The notes under the pieces: generated by a model
Seen by the model: only the letters and a program-made list of their open reading frames with translations
Told to the model about the DNA's origin: nothing
The model's database searches: none
Position numbers and translations under genes: made by a program
Source: a virus
Virus record (IMG/VR): IMGVR_UViG_3300037071_000983
Location: 1 to 23,536 of that record
DNA: 23,536 nt
Direction: 5' to 3' (one strand)
Shown: piece after piece, positions 2,764 to 20,894 of the stretch
How the letters are laid out: each line of letters starts with the position of its first letter
Position numbering within the stretch: the stretch's first letter is position 1

Positions 2764-4644
2764 ATGAACACGGTGCGGAAAACCGCGGCGACGGTCGCCG
2801 GCGGCGGCGAGTTCGTGCTTTCGGACGAAACCCGCGATCGCTACGGCGACATCGTCGAGGCGGCCGGCTGGGAGCTGCGAGCCTTCAAGCGCAATCCGAT
2901 TGCGCTGTTCGGACACGACTCGTCGTTTCCGATCGGAATCTGGCGGAATGTCCGGGTCGAGGGGAAGCGGCTGCTCGGCCGGCTCGAGTTCGCGGCGGCC
3001 GGGACGTCGGCGCGGATTGACGAGCTGCGCTCGCTGGTCGAGCAAGGCGTTCTCAAGGCGGTGTCGGTCGGCTTTCGGGTGCTGGCGGAACCGGTGCCGA
3101 TCGAGCCGCGCGGGCTGCGCTTCACTAAGCATGAGCTGCTCGAAACTTCGCTGGTCGCGGTGCCGGCCAATCCGGCGGCGCTGTCGGCGGCGAAGGCGCT
3201 CGGAATTTCGGACGATACGCTGCGATTAGCCTTCGGCGAGCACGCCGTTTCGAGGTCGATCGCCGGCAACGCTGACACCGGCGGGCACGCCGAAACCCTT
3301 CCTGGACGGAAAACCAAGATGACAAAACTTGCTGATCGGGTCGCCGCTGCGGCGACTGAGCTGAACGAAGCGCGGGACGCACTCGCCGAATATGTGAAGG
3401 AAGACGCGGTCGACGACGTCGTGATCGACGAACTGTCGGCGACGGTCGAGCTGCGCGAGCGGGCGCTGAGCTCGTTGAAGAAAGCCGAGAAGGCGTTGGC
3501 GGCGTCGACGATGCCGGTCGGCGACCGCGGGCCGGAAATCACGGCGCCGGCGATCCGGCGACCGCTCGGCCAAGTCCAGCGCGAGCCTAAGCCGGCCGAT
3601 CTGTTCATGCGCGCGGCGCTCTGTCACGTCGTCGGGCAGGTGACGAGCAAAGATCCGTTGAAGGTGCTGGACGAACGCTACGGCGACCATGAGGCGACGC
3701 AAGTCGTGGTCCGCGCGGCGATCGCCGGCGCGGCGACGACGGTCGCCGGTTGGGCGGCCGAGCTCGTTGAACAGGCAACGGTCGATTGGTTGGAAACGCT
3801 GCGCGCGGCGTCGATCTTTCCGCAACTGGCGGCGCTCGGCCAAAGCCTGACCTTCGGGCCGGGTCGCGGCTCGTTGAAGATTCCGTCGAGGGCCTCGACG
3901 CCGTCGATCTCGGGCTCGTTCGTCGCCGAAGGGGCGCCGATTCCGGTGCGTCGCATCGGCCTTACGTCGATTCCGCTGCTGCCGCACAAGCTGGCGGTGA
4001 TTTCGGTCTTCACGCGGGAAATGGCGCGCTATAGCAATCCGCAAATTGAGGGCATCCTACGGCGCGAGATTGTCGCCGACACCGCGTTGACGATCGACAC
4101 GCTGTTGCAGGATGCGACCGCCGGATCGGCGACGCGGCCGGCTGGTCTGCGCTTCGGCCTTTCGACGCTGACGCCGTCGGCGGCCGGCGGCTATGCGGCG
4201 ATCCTCGCCGACGTCAATACGATCCTGGCGCCGTTCGATGCCGCGAACGCCTCGACGCGGATTGCGCTGTTGATGAACCCGGCACAGGCGCGGCTGCTGG
4301 CGATGACACCGGGGCCGGATGGCACGTTCGGATGGGCGACGCAGTTCCTGTCTAACATCTCGGTGATCTCGTCGACGACGGTGACGGCCGGCGACCTGAT
4401 CGCCGTCGGCGTCGATGACTTCGTCGCCGTCGTCGGGGCGCCGGAATTCGATGCATCCGAGCAAACCGTGCTTCATATGGAAGACACGACACCGCTGCCG
4501 ATCGGCGGCGCCGCGGTCGCCAATCCGTCGCAAAGTATGTTCCAGACGGCAAGCGTCGCGCTGCGCATGCTGAATGAAACGACCTGGGCGATGCGCCGGG
4601 CCGGCATGGTGCAGTGGATCGACAACGTCGATTGGGCGCCGTGA
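2764..4644 (+). CDS. Prohead protease, scaffold and HK97 major capsid protein fused in one ORF
   Basis: A 626-residue fusion. Residues 1-145 are an HK97 prohead protease with the expected catalytic residues: H51 in LFGHD, S101 in AVSVGF and E127 in LLETSLVAVPANP. Residues about 186-255 are a charged, probably coiled-coil segment like the HK97 capsid delta/scaffold domain. Residues about 280-626 are an HK97-fold major capsid protein, with an N-arm/E-loop region near TFGPGRGSLKIPS and a VAEGAPIP motif. Most relatives encode protease and capsid as two genes. An in-frame ATG at 3319 (residue 186) sits exactly at the junction and could give a separate scaffold-capsid product, but its ribosome binding site is weak (CGGAA). 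The main ATG follows AAAGGA 13 bases after the terminase gene. The protein forms the head shell and is presumably self-cleaved during maturation. Confidence 0.92.
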   Translation: MNTVRKTAATVAGGGEFVLSDETRDRYGDIVEAAGWELRAFKRNPIALFGHDSSFPIGIWRNVRVEGKRLLGRLEFAAAGTSARIDELRSLVEQGVLKAVSVGFRVLAEPVPIEPRGLRFTKHELLETSLVAVPANPAALSAAKALGISDDTLRLAFGEHAVSRSIAGNADTGGHAETLPGRKTKMTKLADRVAAAATELNEARDALAEYVKEDAVDDVVIDELSATVELRERALSSLKKAEKALAASTMPVGDRGPEITAPAIRRPLGQVQREPKPADLFMRAALCHVVGQVTSKDPLKVLDERYGDHEATQVVVRAAIAGAATTVAGWAAELVEQATVDWLETLRAASIFPQLAALGQSLTFGPGRGSLKIPSRASTPSISGSFVAEGAPIPVRRIGLTSIPLLPHKLAVISVFTREMARYSNPQIEGILRREIVADTALTIDTLLQDATAGSATRPAGLRFGLSTLTPSAAGGYAAILADVNTILAPFDAANASTRIALLMNPAQARLLAMTPGPDGTFGWATQFLSNISVISSTTVTAGDLIAVGVDDFVAVVGAPEFDASEQTVLHMEDTTPLPIGGAAVANPSQSMFQTASVALRMLNETTWAMRRAGMVQWIDNVDWAP

Positions 4645-4658
4645 GCGTTTAGAGCTCG

Positions 4659-4683
4659 GCCGGCGGCGATCGTCGCCGCCGGC
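4659..4683 (+). other. Perfect 11-bp hairpin after the capsid gene
   Basis: GCCGGCGGCGA (4659-4669) is the exact reverse complement of 4673-4683, with a TCG loop. It lies in the 67-base gap after the capsid stop. No T-tract follows (the next bases are GCAAGGTCAACC), so it is not a classical terminator. A hairpin behind a capsid gene could protect the 3' end of a processed transcript or partly reduce read-through, so that capsid is made in excess. That role is inferred. Confidence 0.5.
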
Positions 4684-9347: not shown

Positions 9348-9791
9348 ATGGCGGCGATGCTGAAAACGCAAAAGCTGATTGTGCTTCTTTTGATCTCTGA
9401 GGGGCCGAACGTCTTCGAGGCGCCGTGTAGTTTCAACACGACGCGCGAGGTCACATTCGAGGCGGGCGTGGTCGAAACGCCGTCGGTCGATTGCGACGAT
9501 CCCGATGCGCCGGCCTGGATCGCACGCGCGATTGATACCTTCTCGAGCACGATCTCGGGCGCCGGCACGCTGCACACCGGCGACTTAGAAACCTGGCAAG
9601 GCTGGTTTTCGTCCGGGCTGCCGAAGCTGGTCCGGGTCAAGCTCGACGTGCCGGCGAACGAAGGCGGCGGCGACTGGCAAGGCGAGTATGTGCTGTCGAG
9701 CATGGGCCTGGCGAAAGAGGGGCGCGGCTATGCAACCTTCTCGGCCGAGATGCAATCGAACGGGCCGGTCGTCTGGACGGATGCGAGCTAG
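9348..9791 (+). CDS. Major tail (tube) protein
   Basis: A 147-residue protein in the position of the tail tube subunit: after the tail completion gene and before the chaperones and tape measure. It has a beta-rich pattern with FNTTREVTFEAGVVETPSVD (about 26-45), a helix-like PDAPAWIARAIDTFSSTISGAGTLHTGD and GEYVLSSMGLAKEGRGYATFSAEMQSNG, as in TP901-1/GTA-type major tail proteins. The ATG at 9348 follows GGGGAG. It is preceded by a terminator-like hairpin, unusual for a gene that must be expressed highly. The stop TAG directly abuts the next ATG. The structural assignment is by size, position and pattern. Confidence 0.8.
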   Translation: MAAMLKTQKLIVLLLISEGPNVFEAPCSFNTTREVTFEAGVVETPSVDCDDPDAPAWIARAIDTFSSTISGAGTLHTGDLETWQGWFSSGLPKLVRVKLDVPANEGGGDWQGEYVLSSMGLAKEGRGYATFSAEMQSNGPVVWTDAS

Positions 9792-10331
9792 ATGCTGGTT
9801 ACGGCGGTGACGTTCCAATGGGCGGACGGAATGCACACGTTCGACCTGAAACTCGGCCAACTGCGCGAGCTCGAGGAAAAGTGCAAAGCCGGCTTTCCGG
9901 TGGTGCTCGAGCGGCTGCTATCGAAGACGTTTCACGCCGACGACATCAAGGAAGTCTTGCGGCTCGGCCTGATCGGCGGCGGCATGCCGGCTTCTAAAGC
10001 CTGGCTGTTGGTGACGCGCTATTATGACGATAAACCGAAGTTCGCACATCTAAACGCCGCGGTGGCGGTGCTGGCGGCGAGCTGTCACGGCATCGAGGAC
10101 TCGCTGGAAGACAAGCCAAACCCTCGGCGGGCGAAGTCGAAAGCGGCCGGCTCGACTTCGCCGCGATCTATGGTTCCGGCGCGATCATCGGGCTCTCGCC
10201 GCGACAAGTCGACCAGTGTTCACTCGGCGAGTGGCTCGCCGTCGTCAAAGCCTGGAATATCGCCAACGGCGCCGAACCGGAAGCTAAGCCGCCGTCCTTC
10301 GACGAACATCGCGACCGACTTGCAAGGCTGA
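9792..10331 (+). CDS. Tail assembly chaperone, zero-frame (G-like) product
   Basis: The zero-frame ORF gives 179 residues. Residues 1-111 look like a folded GTA-TIM-type tail chaperone (VTFQWADGMHTFDLKLGQLRELEEKC, then AFPVVLERLL-like and MPASKAWLLVTRYYDDKP). From residue 112 onwards the zero-frame sequence turns into a Ser/Arg/Pro/Lys-rich string with no fold-like pattern, while the -1 frame carries a proper chaperone domain. This fits a programmed -1 frameshift, as in lambda G/GT, at the heptamer at 10118-10124. The shifted product has 181 residues. Chaperones of this kind bind the tape measure protein during tail assembly and are absent from the mature virion. The ATG directly abuts the preceding TAG, implying translational coupling. 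Confidence 0.85.
   Translation: MLVTAVTFQWADGMHTFDLKLGQLRELEEKCKAGFPVVLERLLSKTFHADDIKEVLRLGLIGGGMPASKAWLLVTRYYDDKPKFAHLNAAVAVLAASCHGIEDSLEDKPNPRRAKSKAAGSTSPRSMVPARSSGSRRDKSTSVHSASGSPSSKPGISPTAPNRKLSRRPSTNIATDLQG
10118..10162 (+). promoter_or_regulatory. Programmed -1 ribosomal frameshift signal
   Basis: The heptamer A_AAC_CCT (10118-10124) is a canonical X_XXY_YYZ slippery site in the correct zero-frame phase (AAC at 10119, CCT at 10122). After a 5-base spacer (10125-10129) comes GGCGAAGTCGA (10130-10140), an exact reverse complement of 10152-10162, giving an 11-bp stem with an 11-base loop. Slippery site, spacer and stem match known -1 frameshift elements of phage tail chaperone genes. Confidence 0.88.
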
Positions 10332-10336
10332 TGTGA
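10124..10336 (+). CDS. T domain of the tail chaperone, read by -1 frameshift (GT product)
   Basis: A 70-codon -1 frame segment that continues the chaperone after slippage at CCT (10122-10124). It reads SAGEVESGRLDFAAIYGSGA, then IIGLSPRQVDQCSLGEWLAV, then a VKAWNIANG motif and a Pro/charged C-terminus, ending with TGA at 10334. The LSPxQ...SLGEW pattern resembles the alphaproteobacterial phage tail assembly chaperone family (phage_TAC-like, the protein next to the GTA-TIM-like gene). This frame is open from 10034 but has no start codon of its own, so it can be translated only by a frameshift. In other alphaproteobacterial clusters the two domains are separate genes. A sequencing indel is the alternative, but the slippery site and stem argue against that. 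Confidence 0.82.
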   Translation, partial: SAGEVESGRLDFAAIYGSGAIIGLSPRQVDQCSLGEWLAVVKAWNIANGAEPEAKPPSFDEHRDRLARLM

Positions 10337-10340
10337 AACC

Positions 10341-12185
10341 ATGCCGGCGACCGATCTCGAGACGCTGGTCGTTTCCTTCGAGGCGACGACGTCCAAGTTC
10401 GACAAGTCGGTCCAGAAGCTGAATCGCGACTTTGCGCGTCAGATGGGCACGCTGGAAAAGCGGGCCAAGCAGTCGCAAACCTCGATCAATTCGAGCCTGG
10501 CGAAGATTGGCAAAGGGGTGACGGGGTTCGCCAAGGGCACCGCCGGCGGTGCGCTCGCCGGTCTGGTCGCCGGCTTCTCGGTCGAGGGCGTCACCAAGGC
10601 GGTGGCGGCGCTGGCGGAAATCGGTGACGTCGCCGACCGGGTCGGGATGACAACCGACGCGATCCAGGAATTGCGCTACGCGGTCGAGCAAACCGGCGGC
10701 ACGGCGGCGGACGCCGACACGGCGATTCAGTTCTTCGCCAAGCAATGGGGCACGGCCGGGAGCGCGGTGCGCAAGGCATTCGAGAATGCCGGCGTCGCAA
10801 TGAAGGATTCGGAAGGCAACGTGTTGTCGGTCGCCGAAGCCTTCGAGAAGTTCCTGGACATCATCAAGAATGCCGGCAGCGCGCAGAATCAGCTCGCGCT
10901 GTCGGCGGCCGGGTTCTCGAAGGGCGCCGGCGGTCAAATGGTGCTGCTCGCCAAGGGCGGCGCGGCGGCCTTCCATGAGTTCGGCGACGCGGCGCATCGG
11001 GCCGGACTAATCACGAAATCCGAAGTGATTGCGCCGATGCGCGAGCTCGACGACAAGATCACGGAATTGCGGGCGTCGATCGAAAGGCTGGGAACCGAGC
11101 TGATCGCCAACTTTGCCGGGCCGGCGCTGAAATCGGCGATGGAGTCGTTTCTCGGTTATCTGAAGCTGATCGCCTATTGGGCGGATTTGCTCGATGAGGC
11201 GGTCAAGACGCTAAATTTCCAGCCGATCCTCGATGCTTTCACACCGGGCACGCTGCAAAACGTCCGGACGCGGCTGGCGATCGGCGGATCGCCGATCTCG
11301 CCGACGCGGACGGCGCAAGATATTCCGGCGGGTATGACGGCCGGCGCGGTCAAGAAAGGCGCGGCCGGCGGCGGGCCGGGGCCGGTCGATCTCGGCGGTG
11401 CGTCGAAAACCGAAACCGCTTATCAGCGCGAAACCGAAGCGATCCAGGACAAGATCGCCGCCATGCAAACCGAGCGGGCGACGCTCGGCCTGGCGGCTGG
11501 ACCGACGGCCGAATTTCAAGCGCGGCAAGAACTGATCGCCGCGGCGACCGAGAAGGGCGCGACGCTGACGGCGCTGCAAACCGCCGAAATCAACAAACTT
11601 GCGCAAGCCGCCGGCATCGCTGCGACGGCGCTCGAAAGCGCGAAAGCCAAGCTGGACGCGATGAACGAAGCGCAAAAGGCGTTCGCCTCGGAAATGAGCG
11701 GCGCCTTCGAGGGCCTGATCGTCGACGGCAAGACGCTGAATGAAACCTTCGCCGACATCCTCGACAACCTGGCGAGGATGTTGATTCAGGCGGCGATCGC
11801 CGGCACCGGTCCCCTAGCGGGTCTGCTCGGCACCGCGGCGGCGCCGGGCACCGGCGGCGCCGGCGGCCTCGCCGGCATCCTCGCCGGGGCGATGGCGGGC
11901 GGCGGCTCGATCTCGCGCGGCCGCGCCTATCTGGTCGGCGAGAAGGGGCCGGAGATCATCGTTCCCAAGGTCGCCGGGCAAGTCATTTCAAACGACAAGC
12001 TGCGCGCGGCCGGCGGCGCCGGCGGCGGCGTGGTGCTGAATATGCCGGTCAACATTTCGGCGCCGGGCGCCGATCCGGCGCAGTTGATGCGCGTCGCCGC
12101 CGAGCTCAGTGCGCTGCGCGCCGACGTGCCGCGGCAAGTTCGGGCCGGGTTCGCGACGATCCAGGGCCGGCGGCAGCGGGTGTAG
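10341..12185 (+). CDS. Tail tape measure protein
   Basis: A 614-residue tape measure protein, which sets tail length and is carried in the tail tube for DNA ejection. The N-terminus (DLETLVVSFEATTSKFDKSVQKLNRDF) is typical. It is followed by Ala/Gly-rich helical stretches that could insert in membranes (FAKGTAGGALAGLVAGFSVEG, about 55-78; GGAGGLAGILAGAMAGGGS, about 505-525). The C-terminus has the conserved GRAYLVGEKGPEIIVPKVAGQVI motif (about 530-553). Coiled-coil regions with AEIGDVADRVGMTTDAIQEL lie between. The length would correspond to a tail of roughly 90 nm at about 1.5 Å per residue, which is an inference. The ATG at 10341 is 4 bases after the frameshift product's stop, fitting the usual chaperone to tape measure order. 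Confidence 0.92.
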   Translation: MPATDLETLVVSFEATTSKFDKSVQKLNRDFARQMGTLEKRAKQSQTSINSSLAKIGKGVTGFAKGTAGGALAGLVAGFSVEGVTKAVAALAEIGDVADRVGMTTDAIQELRYAVEQTGGTAADADTAIQFFAKQWGTAGSAVRKAFENAGVAMKDSEGNVLSVAEAFEKFLDIIKNAGSAQNQLALSAAGFSKGAGGQMVLLAKGGAAAFHEFGDAAHRAGLITKSEVIAPMRELDDKITELRASIERLGTELIANFAGPALKSAMESFLGYLKLIAYWADLLDEAVKTLNFQPILDAFTPGTLQNVRTRLAIGGSPISPTRTAQDIPAGMTAGAVKKGAAGGGPGPVDLGGASKTETAYQRETEAIQDKIAAMQTERATLGLAAGPTAEFQARQELIAAATEKGATLTALQTAEINKLAQAAGIAATALESAKAKLDAMNEAQKAFASEMSGAFEGLIVDGKTLNETFADILDNLARMLIQAAIAGTGPLAGLLGTAAAPGTGGAGGLAGILAGAMAGGGSISRGRAYLVGEKGPEIIVPKVAGQVISNDKLRAAGGAGGGVVLNMPVNISAPGADPAQLMRVAAELSALRADVPRQVRAGFATIQGRRQRV

Positions 12186-12831: not shown

Positions 12832-13472
12832 TTACGCTGACGGGCGGACAAATTGCGCTGTTGACGGCCGGGGCGCTGGTGCGGCGGCTGTTCCTGACGA
12901 TCGACACCACCGACGCGAGCGGCGGCGGTGCGGCGACGGTGCGATTTTGGGACGGTCTCGGGTCGATCGTCGTTTCCGGCGACACGTTTTCGCCGCTCGG
13001 CGGCATGCCGGAAATGAGCAAGGTTTCGCAAGTGCTCGACGGCTCGATTCCGGGTGTGATGTTTACGGTGTCGGGCGTGCCGGGGACGCCGCTTGCTGAC
13101 CTGGTTAATGACGAGTCGCGGCGCTGGCATCAACGGCCGTGCGTGATCTGGCTCGGCCTGTTCGATCCGGCGACGGCGGCGCTCGAGGGCGGGCTGATCG
13201 CCTTACAGCGCGGCTTTCTCGACAAGGCGACCTTTCTCGAGGACGAAGTCGGCGGCGCGTCGAGTCTGCAAATCGCCATCGAGAGCTCGGCGCGCGAGAT
13301 GACGCGAAGCAATCCGGCGGTGCGCTCGCATCTGGATCAACTCGACCGGTTTCCGAACGATTTCGGCTTTGAGTTCGTCGGCCGGGACTTTCCGCTCGAG
13401 TGGGGCGTGCTGCAAAAGCACGGCCGGCATCCGGAACGGCGGCACGGCAAGGGCAAAAGGGGCGGGCGTTGA
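12828..13472 (+). CDS. Tail tip protein, DUF2163-like
   Basis: A 214-residue protein with a beta-rich N-terminus (MITLTGGQIALLTAGALVRRLF) and a C-terminal RSNPAVRSHLDQLDRFPNDFGFEFV segment. That segment resembles the R...D....FPGD..FRYV ending of DUF2163-like tail proteins of alphaproteobacterial phages and gene transfer agents. The last residues (KHGRHPERRHGKGKRGGR) are strongly basic. It lies between the distal tail gene and the tail hub, consistent with a baseplate or tip component that recruits the hub. The ATG at 12828 overlaps the previous stop by 4 bases, and its stop is overlapped by the next gene's TTG. Confidence 0.7.
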   Translation: MITLTGGQIALLTAGALVRRLFLTIDTTDASGGGAATVRFWDGLGSIVVSGDTFSPLGGMPEMSKVSQVLDGSIPGVMFTVSGVPGTPLADLVNDESRRWHQRPCVIWLGLFDPATAALEGGLIALQRGFLDKATFLEDEVGGASSLQIAIESSAREMTRSNPAVRSHLDQLDRFPNDFGFEFVGRDFPLEWGVLQKHGRHPERRHGKGKRGGR

Positions 13473-13948
13473 AGCTGACACCGCGGCTCGCAACGCTCGC
13501 CGATCTTCCGCGGATGGTCGAAATGGGCGCCGCGTTCGTCGGCTCGGTCGAGGCGGCGGTGCCGTTCGATGCCGACGGCTTCGCGGCGCGGCTGGCGGAA
13601 TTCATGGCGCATCCGAACGCGCTGATCCTTTTGCTCGACGATGGCACCGAAGCGGTCGGCGGCCTCGGCGCGTTCTGTGCGCCGCATTTCCTGTTCCTGC
13701 GGCCGATGATGGCGACCGAGCTGTTTTGGTGGGTCGAACCGGATTATCGCGGCGGCACGGCGGCCTTGCGGCTGCTGGACTATTACGAGCAATGGGCGGC
13801 GGCGAAGGGCTGCGGCGTGGTGACGTTCTCGATGTTCGCCGGCGACGAGAAGCTGCGCCGGCTGCTGGATCGGCGCGGCTTCCGGCATTGCGAGTGCGCC
13901 TTCGCAAAGGACGTGGTCGCGGTCGAACGCGACGCGGCGGCGGCCTGA
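13469..13948 (+). CDS. GNAT-family N-acetyltransferase in the tail operon
   Basis: A 159-residue GNAT acetyltransferase transferring acetyl from acetyl-CoA to an unknown amine. Features include LTPRLATLADLPRMVEMG (helix 1), an ELFWWVEPDYRGG segment (84-96) forming the beta-strand and acetyl-CoA loop (R/Q-x-x-G-x-G/A type, YRGGTA), then LDYYEQWAAAKGCG and a final LLDRRGFRHCECAF. The family has a conserved beta-bulge and helix; all parts appear intact. The start is TTG at 13469, overlapping the previous stop (TTGA), with AAAAGGGG at 13455-13462 as ribosome binding site. The gene follows a tail-tip gene and precedes the hub gene by 3 bases. It could modify a tail component, a host protein or a surface molecule; the substrate is not deducible. 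Confidence 0.85.
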   Translation: MKLTPRLATLADLPRMVEMGAAFVGSVEAAVPFDADGFAARLAEFMAHPNALILLLDDGTEAVGGLGAFCAPHFLFLRPMMATELFWWVEPDYRGGTAALRLLDYYEQWAAAKGCGVVTFSMFAGDEKLRRLLDRRGFRHCECAFAKDVVAVERDAAAA

Positions 13949-18017: not shown

Positions 18018-20894
18018 GTGACGGCGCCGCTGGTCGGGCCTTGGCAGGTTCTCGGCCGGCGGTTTCCGCGGGAAGTTCCGATCGCGCGCGAGCTCGAAGA
18101 GGTCGAGCTCGTCGACGTGCGACCGCTGCGGCGCTTCGAGCTCGTGCCGGAACGGCCTTTGCGGATTTTCAACCTGGTCGGCATCGATGCGCCGTCCTTG
18201 CCGGAAATCACGATCTCGGGCACGGCGTCGATCGTTCTCGGCGGCAGTTTGCAGGCGCGGGCGATCCTGCGGCCGCTGGCGACCGGTTCGCTGGTCGTCA
18301 CCGGCACGGCGGCGGCGTCGGCTCGGCGGCCGATGCTCGGCGCGGCGGCTCTGGTCGTCACCGGCGGCCTTGCCGCTCGCCGGCGGGCATCGGCGACCGG
18401 ATCGGCTAACCTGGCGCTGACGGCGACCGCTGCCGCGGCGTTGGGTCAAAAGGCGGCCGGCACGGCGTCGATCGTCGTCGGCGTCTATGCGTCGACGGTC
18501 AAGCGGCTGCGGATGAGCGGTGCGGGCTCGATCGCCGTCACCGGCACGGCGGCGGCGTCGGCTCGGCGGCATGCGGCCGGCGCGGCCTCGCTGGTCTTGA
18601 CGGCACCGCCGGCGACCTTCGGCGCCGTCGCGATGTCCGGCACGGTGTCGATCACGATCTCGGGCACGGGCTCGGCGCGGGCATCGCGGCGGCTACAGGC
18701 GGCGGCTTCGCTGGTCGTCACCGGCACCGCCGATCCGCGCAAGCGCATGCGGGCGGCCGGCTCGGCGGCGCTCGTGGTGACGGCGACGGCGACCGCCGAG
18801 CTCGGCGCCAAGCATACGTTCGAGGCTTCGGCCGCTCTCGTGCTGAGCTCGTCGGCCACGGCACGGGCACGGCTGCGGGTGGCAGGCGCCGCGGCGTTGA
18901 CGTTGTCCACTGGCGGCAACGCGCGGCGCCGGCTGTCCATGTCGGCCTCGGCGTCGATCGTCGTCACCGGCACCGGCACGGCGAAGCAAACCGTTTCGAT
19001 CGCCGGCACGACACTGGTCGCGGTGATCTTTGCGACCTTGTCGGCCGACGTCGAGGCGGCGTTTACGATGTCCGGCGCGGCTTCGCTGCATGTCACCGGC
19101 GCGCTAGCGGCGTCGGGGCAATTGCATGCGGCGGCGACCGCGAACCTGGTTGTCACCGGCACGGCCGATCCGCGTCGCCGGCAAACGCTGGTCGGCACGG
19201 CGTCGATCGTCGTCACCGGCTCGATGGTCGCCGGCGCCGGGCAGACTTCGGCGTCCGGCACGGCGTCGATCGTTCTCTCGGCGAGCTGCGCGGCGACGGG
19301 CTTCCTGCACGCCGACGCGGCGGCGAACCTGGTTGTCACCGGCACCGTGGCGGCTTCGGCGCGGCTGCGGCCGACCGGGTCCAGCGCGATCGTCTTGACG
19401 GCTGCGGCCGATCCGCGGCGGCGGGCCTATCTCGCCGGCACGGCGGCGATCGTCTTGACGGCGGCGGCGGCGGCGGCGGCGCGGCTGCGGGTCGCCGGCT
19501 CGGCTTCGCTGGTCGTTGGCGGCACACTGTCGACGGCGGCGCCGGCGGTCGGCGGCACGGCGTCGATCGTCGTCACCGGCACGTTCAACCCGCGCAAGCG
19601 GCTGGCGGCGACGGCTGCCGCGGCGATCGTCGTCACGGCTGCGGCCGACGCGCGGCGCAAAGCCTATTTGACGGCGGCGGCCTCGCTGGTCGTCACCGGC
19701 ACCGCCGATCCGCGGCTCGTGCGGCGGCTGCAAGCGACGGCCTCGATCGTCCTGACGGGCACGGCGACCGGATCGGCTCGGCGGCGCGGCGCCGGCGCGG
19801 CGGCCCTCGTCCTGACCTCGGCGGCCGACGCGCGGCGCCGGGCCTATCTCGCCGGCTCGAGCTCGATTGTCGTCACCGGCACCGGCACGGCGCGGGCGGT
19901 GATGCGGCCGACGGCGGCGGCAAACCTCGTTTTGACGGCGCCGGCGGTCGATGCGCGCAAGCGGCTGGCGGCGACCGGCGCGGCGGCGATCGTCGTCACG
20001 GCGTCGGCCGATGCGCGCAAGCGGTTCTTCATGGCGGGCACGGCCTCGCTCGCCGTCACCGTCACCGGCACGGCGCGGCAAGTTTACCGGATGTCCGGCA
20101 CGGCCTCGATCGTCGTCACGGGCACCGCCGATCCGCGTCGCCGGCAGTACGGCGCCGGCACGTCGGCGCTCGCCGTCACGACGGTCGGCGACGCGCGGCG
20201 GTTGCAGTATGGCGCCGGCACGGCCTCGATCGCCGTGACTACGGCTTGCAACGCGACGATTGTCCCGGCTGAGAGCTTCGCGACGATTTCGCTGGTCGGC
20301 ACGGCAATCTCGAATTCGCAGACGATTTCGCTGCCGGCGCATACGACCGACGACGTCGCTTATTGGGCGGTGATGTCGACCGTTAACAATACGACCGGCA
20401 CGGCGCCGGCGAATTGGGTCAAGGTCGGTGAGGACATCCAAGGCAATCGGTATATGCAACTGTACCGGCGCGTCCTGACGGGCTCGGGCACGTCGGCCGG
20501 CAATTTCACCGGCACGGCGCCGGAGCGTGGCGTTTGTTGGGTGCTTCGGAACGTCGACACCGCCGATCCGGAAGGGGCGGTCAACTTCGACTCGGCCGGC
20601 TCGTCGGCGACGTTCACGATGCCGGCGCTGACGCTCGAGCGCACCGGCGGCTCGTCCTGGGTGCTATCCGTCGGGCTGACGCGAACCGGCATTGCCTCGA
20701 CGATCATCGACACGTCGACGCCGTCGGGGATGACGCGGCGCAACGGCGGCTCGATCGGCTCGAATGGCTCTTACGGTTTTTGGGACACGAATGCCGGCGT
20801 CACAAGCTGGTCGTCGCCGCCGGCGATTGCCGACACCGGCAACGCCGCGGCGATGACGGCGCTGAGCTTTGAAGTGCGGGCGAAGCCGCTCTAA
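18018..20894 (+). CDS. Long repeat protein, candidate beta-solenoid tail fibre
   Basis: A 958-residue protein, GTG start at 18018. Residues 1-61 are an N-terminal segment rich in Arg/Glu and Val. Residues about 62-750 consist of roughly 34 degenerate repeats of about 20 residues (60 bases), consensus x-x-G-T-A-S-I-V-V-T-G-T-A-D-P-R-R-R-x-x. Each has a hydrophobic strand (SIVVTG), a polar turn and often Arg-rich ends. This is the pattern of a stacked beta-solenoid or a long triple-beta stalk, though a disordered or other fold is possible. Residues about 752-958 form a different C-terminal domain (DDVAYWAVMSTVNNTTGTAPANWVKVGEDIQ, and RVLTGSGTSAGNFTGTAPERGVCWVLRN), resembling beta-sandwich domains at the ends of phage virion proteins. 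By position and size it is probably a receptor-binding fibre or tail stalk; no enzymatic motif is visible. Confidence 0.85.
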   Translation: MTAPLVGPWQVLGRRFPREVPIARELEEVELVDVRPLRRFELVPERPLRIFNLVGIDAPSLPEITISGTASIVLGGSLQARAILRPLATGSLVVTGTAAASARRPMLGAAALVVTGGLAARRRASATGSANLALTATAAAALGQKAAGTASIVVGVYASTVKRLRMSGAGSIAVTGTAAASARRHAAGAASLVLTAPPATFGAVAMSGTVSITISGTGSARASRRLQAAASLVVTGTADPRKRMRAAGSAALVVTATATAELGAKHTFEASAALVLSSSATARARLRVAGAAALTLSTGGNARRRLSMSASASIVVTGTGTAKQTVSIAGTTLVAVIFATLSADVEAAFTMSGAASLHVTGALAASGQLHAAATANLVVTGTADPRRRQTLVGTASIVVTGSMVAGAGQTSASGTASIVLSASCAATGFLHADAAANLVVTGTVAASARLRPTGSSAIVLTAAADPRRRAYLAGTAAIVLTAAAAAAARLRVAGSASLVVGGTLSTAAPAVGGTASIVVTGTFNPRKRLAATAAAAIVVTAAADARRKAYLTAAASLVVTGTADPRLVRRLQATASIVLTGTATGSARRRGAGAAALVLTSAADARRRAYLAGSSSIVVTGTGTARAVMRPTAAANLVLTAPAVDARKRLAATGAAAIVVTASADARKRFFMAGTASLAVTVTGTARQVYRMSGTASIVVTGTADPRRRQYGAGTSALAVTTVGDARRLQYGAGTASIAVTTACNATIVPAESFATISLVGTAISNSQTISLPAHTTDDVAYWAVMSTVNNTTGTAPANWVKVGEDIQGNRYMQLYRRVLTGSGTSAGNFTGTAPERGVCWVLRNVDTADPEGAVNFDSAGSSATFTMPALTLERTGGSSWVLSVGLTRTGIASTIIDTSTPSGMTRRNGGSIGSNGSYGFWDTNAGVTSWSSPPAIADTGNAAAMTALSFEVRAKPL
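18201..20276 (+). repeat. About 34 in-frame 60-base repeats inside the fibre gene
   Basis: Tandem degenerate repeats of 60 bases in phase with the reading frame. A recurrent core is GGCACGGCGTCGATCGTCG / TCACCGGCACGGC. The longest exact copy I found is 35 bases, at 18296-18330 and 18536-18570, exactly 240 bases (four units) apart. Neighbouring units differ by many substitutions, so the array expanded long ago but still has short near-identical blocks that allow copy-number change. It is coding, without spacers. Confidence 0.85.

Follow-up and report, generated by a model that had tools for sequence, protein, structure and literature searches.

We found that the gene at positions 9792-10336 on the plus strand of the window (the whole 23,536-nucleotide stretch of viral DNA analyzed here) is very probably a G/GT-type tail chaperone gene with a −1 programmed frameshift at the heptamer A_AAC_CCT. 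From the sequence, it is highly probable that −1 frameshifting yields a G-T fusion protein, and quite probable that the shift takes place at A_AAC_CCT. A −1 frameshift joining a chaperone domain to a T domain devoid of a start codon had been proposed by a sequence-only reading of this DNA, and this proposal is supported by the phase of the heptamer, by the stem that follows it and by the frame of T in 185 of 195 loci, window included.

The chaperone gene and its predicted slip cassette

The zero-frame product, G, is a protein of 179 aa encoded at 9792-10331 (+) and assigned to phrog_8985. Its residues 6-96 match PF11836 (Phage_TAC_11, GTA-gp10) with 72.5 bits, above the curated cut-off of 27.8. 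The N-terminal domain is therefore PF11836 rather than the "GTA-TIM" of the sequence-only reading, which we take to be a different protein. The structure model of the first 111 residues of G is confident (pLDDT 92.5), and some of its fold neighbours among viral models carry the annotation of tail assembly chaperone; a Foldseek comparison of the same model with the PDB gave no significant match. The gene lies between a major tail (tube) protein gene at 9348-9791 (+; PF06199 Phage_tail_2, phrog_13196 major tail protein) and a tape measure protein gene at 10341-12185 (+; phrog_10574 tail length tape measure protein, E 4.5e-39).

The heptamer AAACCCT at 10118-10124 (+), with the first base of its AAC codon at 10119, reads as A_AAC_CCT in the frame of the ORF 9792-10331. 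It is followed by a 5-nt spacer (10125-10129, +) and by a hairpin (10130-10162, +), whose arms GGCGAAGTCGA (10130-10140) and TCGACTTCGCC (10152-10162) form a perfect 11-bp stem around an 11-nt loop (10141-10151), with a folding energy of −20.7 kcal/mol. The phase, the spacer and the stem had all been claimed beforehand, and each was confirmed. In G/GT-type genes a stimulatory structure downstream of the heptamer is common but not universal. The 3' arm of the hairpin doubles as the coding sequence for the conserved LDFA of T. Inspection by eye for a Shine-Dalgarno-like stimulator gave a GAGGA at 10095-10099, slightly outside the 6-17 nt range of PMC4066793. Also by eye, the loop sequence GCGGC (10143-10147) could pair with a GCCGC at about 10196-10200 as a possible pseudoknot, a pairing that could easily arise by chance because the DNA is so GC-rich.

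The open stretch of the −1 frame spans 10034-10336, and the T domain would be read in it from the TCG at 10124 to 10336 (+) after the shift. As had been claimed, T has no start codon of its own: the only ATG, GTG or TTG in this frame is the ATG at 10331, immediately ahead of the stop. The predicted post-shift reading is ...EDKPNP/SAGEVESGRLDFAAIYG..., ending at 10336, for a total of 181 aa. T matches phrog_18467 (E 3e-7), a 50-position family annotated as being of "unknown function" which is also matched by all 60 of the 60 aligned T domains, and it matches an HMM of relatives with E 8e-27, the window being included in the building of that HMM. The T model is a small helical domain (pLDDT 87.7). 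Neither a Pfam search with T nor a Foldseek comparison of its model with viral models gave a significant match.

Most ribosomes would thus be predicted to keep the zero frame and to produce the 179-aa G, and a minority would slip one base back at A_AAC_CCT, assisted by the hairpin 5 nt downstream, to produce the 181-aa G-T fusion. Both the slippage and its efficiency are predictions, the latter drawn from lambda only. Likewise by analogy with lambda, the one source for the roles suggested here, the role of G would be to coat the tape measure protein and that of the T portion of the fusion to recruit tail tube subunits.

Chance is a poor explanation for the combination of heptamer and stem, as judged by tests of both that were post hoc. 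In-phase X_XXY_YYZ heptamers occur twice per about 5,940 codons in the genes of the window, a rate taken over 16 gene intervals, two of which have lengths not divisible by 3 and so include a small part in an unchecked frame. This rate gives a P of about 0.007 for one such heptamer in the 21-codon slot in which relatives have their sites. At 67 of 200,000 random positions, a perfect stem of at least 11 bp started 4-10 nt downstream. Of the 5,130 XXXYYYZ heptamers counted over both strands of an earlier set of the loci, only 2 had such a stem, that of the window being one of the two. The 61-nt cassette region had a z of −2.3 against shuffles; by folding energy alone, it is only moderately stable for GC-rich DNA, in the top 6-7% of the window.

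Several other features were recorded elsewhere in the window. A single ORF at 2764-4644 carries both a prohead protease (PF04586) and a major capsid protein (PF05065), and just past the stop of this capsid gene a perfect 11-bp stem with a 3-nt loop (4659-4683) forms a possible terminator or processing site. A GNAT acetyltransferase (PF00583) is encoded within the tail gene module at 13400-13948. A 958-aa ORF at 18018-20894, made of repeated ASIVVTGTADPRRR-like units and with 60-bp repeats in its DNA, had no match in PHROG and is perhaps a fibre protein.

Frame of T and putative slip sites in relatives

Relatives were collected from 9 phage records, 80 IMG/VR contigs and 80 genome contigs. Among the 140 non-redundant loci that had been chosen by G and in which T could be placed relative to G, T was in the −1 frame in 131, in the same frame in 8 and in the +1 frame in 1. 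To offset the bias of choosing by G, loci chosen by T were added, and in the resulting 195 non-redundant loci (window included) T was in the −1 frame in 185, in frame in 8 and in +1 in 2. Searching IMG/VR with the window's own fused protein or with the exact sequence of its stem returned no relative, and a megablast of the whole window against phages returned no match.

The loci with G and T in one frame include the phage RHph_X2_26 (L003), the L061 group and Methylobacterium prophages. The in-frame G-T fusions of Methylobacterium (L144, L151, L152, L153 and L161) and of RHph_X2_26 show no clear slip site. Ten consecutive A stand at the usual slip position in L061 and its copies L063, L066 and L068, with T in frame 0, and in L038, with T in +1; transcriptional slippage or a homopolymer error is possible there. 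T is also in +1 in L218. Finally, a PF11836-like gene without T was seen in L133, L134, L140, L141, L145-L147, L150, L154, L157, L158, L160, L163-L165 and L168, where the gene order differs and the next ORF looks, by eye, like a prohead protease.

An in-phase slippery site, either a canonical heptamer or N_GGG_GAR, was found in the overlap of 128 of the 131 −1 loci. These motifs were strongly biased in phase: in the same overlaps, 47 copies of GGGAAAN were in slippage phase against 4 that were not, and all 81 copies of GGGGGAR were in phase. G_GGG_GAR constitutes a second, non-XXXYYYZ class of slip site in 70 of the 131 loci, about half of the family; in L125, L128 and L007, for example, GGG GAG stands immediately ahead of the stop. 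In the 127 usable loci, the distance from the GLxGGG pattern to the first site is 46-66 codons (median 50), and in the window A_AAC_CCT lies 53 codons past the pattern. In much of the family, 45-nt windows show a dip in mean folding energy immediately past the site, most for GGGAAA, less for GGGGGA and least for AAAAAA sites, the dip being weak for A_AAA_AAR. In a second pass, 25 −1 loci were scored as having no site, 21 of these being failures of the GLxGGG pattern that were not re-scored. L013, L014, L021 and L114 carry none of the second-pass motifs, L014 having C_GGG_GAA.

Taken together, the −1 frame of T, the in-phase slippery sites and the naturally occurring in-frame G-T fusions of relatives suggest a G/GT-type −1 frameshift between the tube and tape measure genes. 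An alignment of homologues had been put forward as a check of the cassette: position, phase and the occurrence of some structure downstream turned out to be conserved, but the exact heptamer and stem did not.

Since nearly all relatives appear to frameshift, the trick is an established one and the window displays it with an unusual slip sequence. The idea that this cassette represents a new fusion of the two domains by recoding thus had to be abandoned, the −1 overlap being the norm of the family. Taken singly, the cassette is an ordinary case apart from its odd heptamer; what is new is the rare heptamer together with the family-wide description. Public records mostly annotate the pair as a "tail tube protein" and a truncated hypothetical ORF. 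We offer instead a family-wide reading, in which the T domain (phrog_18467) of PF11836 chaperones from alphaproteobacterial phages would be reached by a −1 shift at G_GGA_AAR, A_AAA_AAR or G_GGG_GAR. Such a reading would correct many annotations and explain the orphan family phrog_18467. It would also set phages apart from GTAs in a way relevant to the origin of the latter.

The unusual heptamer and alternative readings

A_AAC_CCT as the sole site was found in no other locus sampled. A second in-phase AAACCC, in L191, has a G_GGA_AAA just downstream and was taken as incidental. The heptamers listed as efficient in E. coli, A_AAC_CCT not being among them, are V_VV.A_AA.R, H_HH.U_UU.Y, U_UU.A_AA.G, C_CCC_CCC and A_AA.G_GG.G, and A_AA.C_CC.A is one of three motifs that stayed below threshold despite a strong stimulator (PMC4066793). 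The value for A_AA.C_CC.U is given in a figure only, and C_CC.U alone is among the six best tetramers (PMC4066793). The strong hairpin of the window may compensate for a weak heptamer.

The zero frame of the window is also unusual, as it remains open for 207 nt beyond the slip site, among the longest in the family. As a consequence, unshifted G would carry a tail of 68 residues, encoded by the last 68 codons of its ORF, and this tail would be dual-coded because almost the whole of T overlaps the open zero frame. The tail shows no sign of conservation.

The weakness of the heptamer by E. coli rules (PMC4066793), as well as its absence as a common site in relatives, would fit a −1 shift that is real but occurs elsewhere in the overlap, from 10034 on, with A_AAC_CCT being incidental. 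We consider this improbable, for the overlap of the window contains no other in-phase X_XXY_YYZ or G_GGG_GAR site, and A_AAC_CCT stands at the homologous position and is followed by the one such stem. We regard as very improbable a sequencing or assembly indel hiding a simple in-frame fusion: the window is a contig from an uncultured virus for which no near-identical record was found, and in-frame fusions do exist (8 of the 195 loci), yet the −1 arrangement is the family norm, and an indel would not put an in-phase heptamer and a stem at the homologous position.

A similarly slim chance is left to T being made as a separate protein by re-initiation, coupling or a non-standard start, in the manner of the two-gene layout of GTAs. 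In GTA clusters the second gene indeed starts on its own, at a codon that overlaps the gp10 stop or lies near it, and T is annotated as a gene apart in some phage records. However, the T frame of the window offers no start before its terminal ATG, and the zero-frame stop lies only 5 nt before the end of T, so that coupling to the zero frame cannot work. Moreover, of the 131 relatives only L123 and L124 had an ATG in the T frame close to where the zero frame stops, and the phase bias of the slippery motifs in relatives likewise argues against it. A G/GT-type −1 frameshift at A_AAC_CCT hence remains our preferred reading.

Comparison with GTAs and known frameshifting systems

In four GTA clusters from Rhodobacterales genomes (L171 and L174-L176), gp10 adjoins a PF09550 gene that has a start of its own, and a search near the gp10 end gave no slippery motif. 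Thus the statement that two separate genes are the usual layout fits these GTAs, but not the phages and prophages with the domain pair, in which T was in −1 in 131 of 140 and then 185 of 195 loci. The window does not share the two-gene layout, in which each gene has its own start, since its T has none. T was also considered as a PF09550 (Phage_TAC_6) domain but is not assigned to it: it has no Pfam match and a profile comparison with the GTA sequences gave only a weak resemblance, with a probability of 8%. A loose pattern is common to phage T and GTA TAC_6, and its interpretation as homology is unsupported by this profile comparison. We tentatively propose, at somewhat below even chances, a fuller scenario in which A_AAC_CCT would be the sole working slip site and reliant on the perfect hairpin, G would bear its dual-coded 68-residue tail, and the GTA clusters would represent lineages in which two coupled genes have taken the place of an ancestral frameshift.

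A partial literature search by the name PF11836 returned no account of frameshifting in these chaperones, which is weak evidence of absence. Low-level −1 frameshifting is classical in G/GT genes (PMC5009743). The window resembles lambda G/GT in that the chaperone gene immediately precedes the tape measure gene, T is start-less and in −1, and the heptamer is in phase (PMC5009743), but differs in its sequence families (PF11836 and phrog_18467), in its heptamer A_AAC_CCT and in its zero frame staying open 207 nt past the site. As in the window, the RcGTA-type gp10 and second chaperone (PF11836 and PF09550; PMC11409702) combine a PF11836 chaperone with a small second chaperone domain after it; unlike in the window, these are two genes with their own starts and no slippery motif was found, and RcGTA TAC_6 is not recognizably of the same family as phage T.

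Among phages of the same bacterial class, the Alphaproteobacteria, tail chaperone frameshifts are described for phiCbK and its relatives, at AAAAAAC in phiCbK and at GGGAAAC in Colossus (PMC3556154), as well as for the majority of one set of Rhodobacter capsulatus phages (PMC8601537). These phages are likened to the window by the recoding event and its place in the genome alone, and they differ from it by slipping at A_AAA_AAC or G_GGA_AAC. Finally, GGGGGAA is a slip site of chaperone genes in actinobacteriophages (PRFect, PMC10274946). It is not the motif of the window itself and belongs to phages of other hosts, but it is the same motif as the G_GGG_GAR found in about half of the window's relatives.
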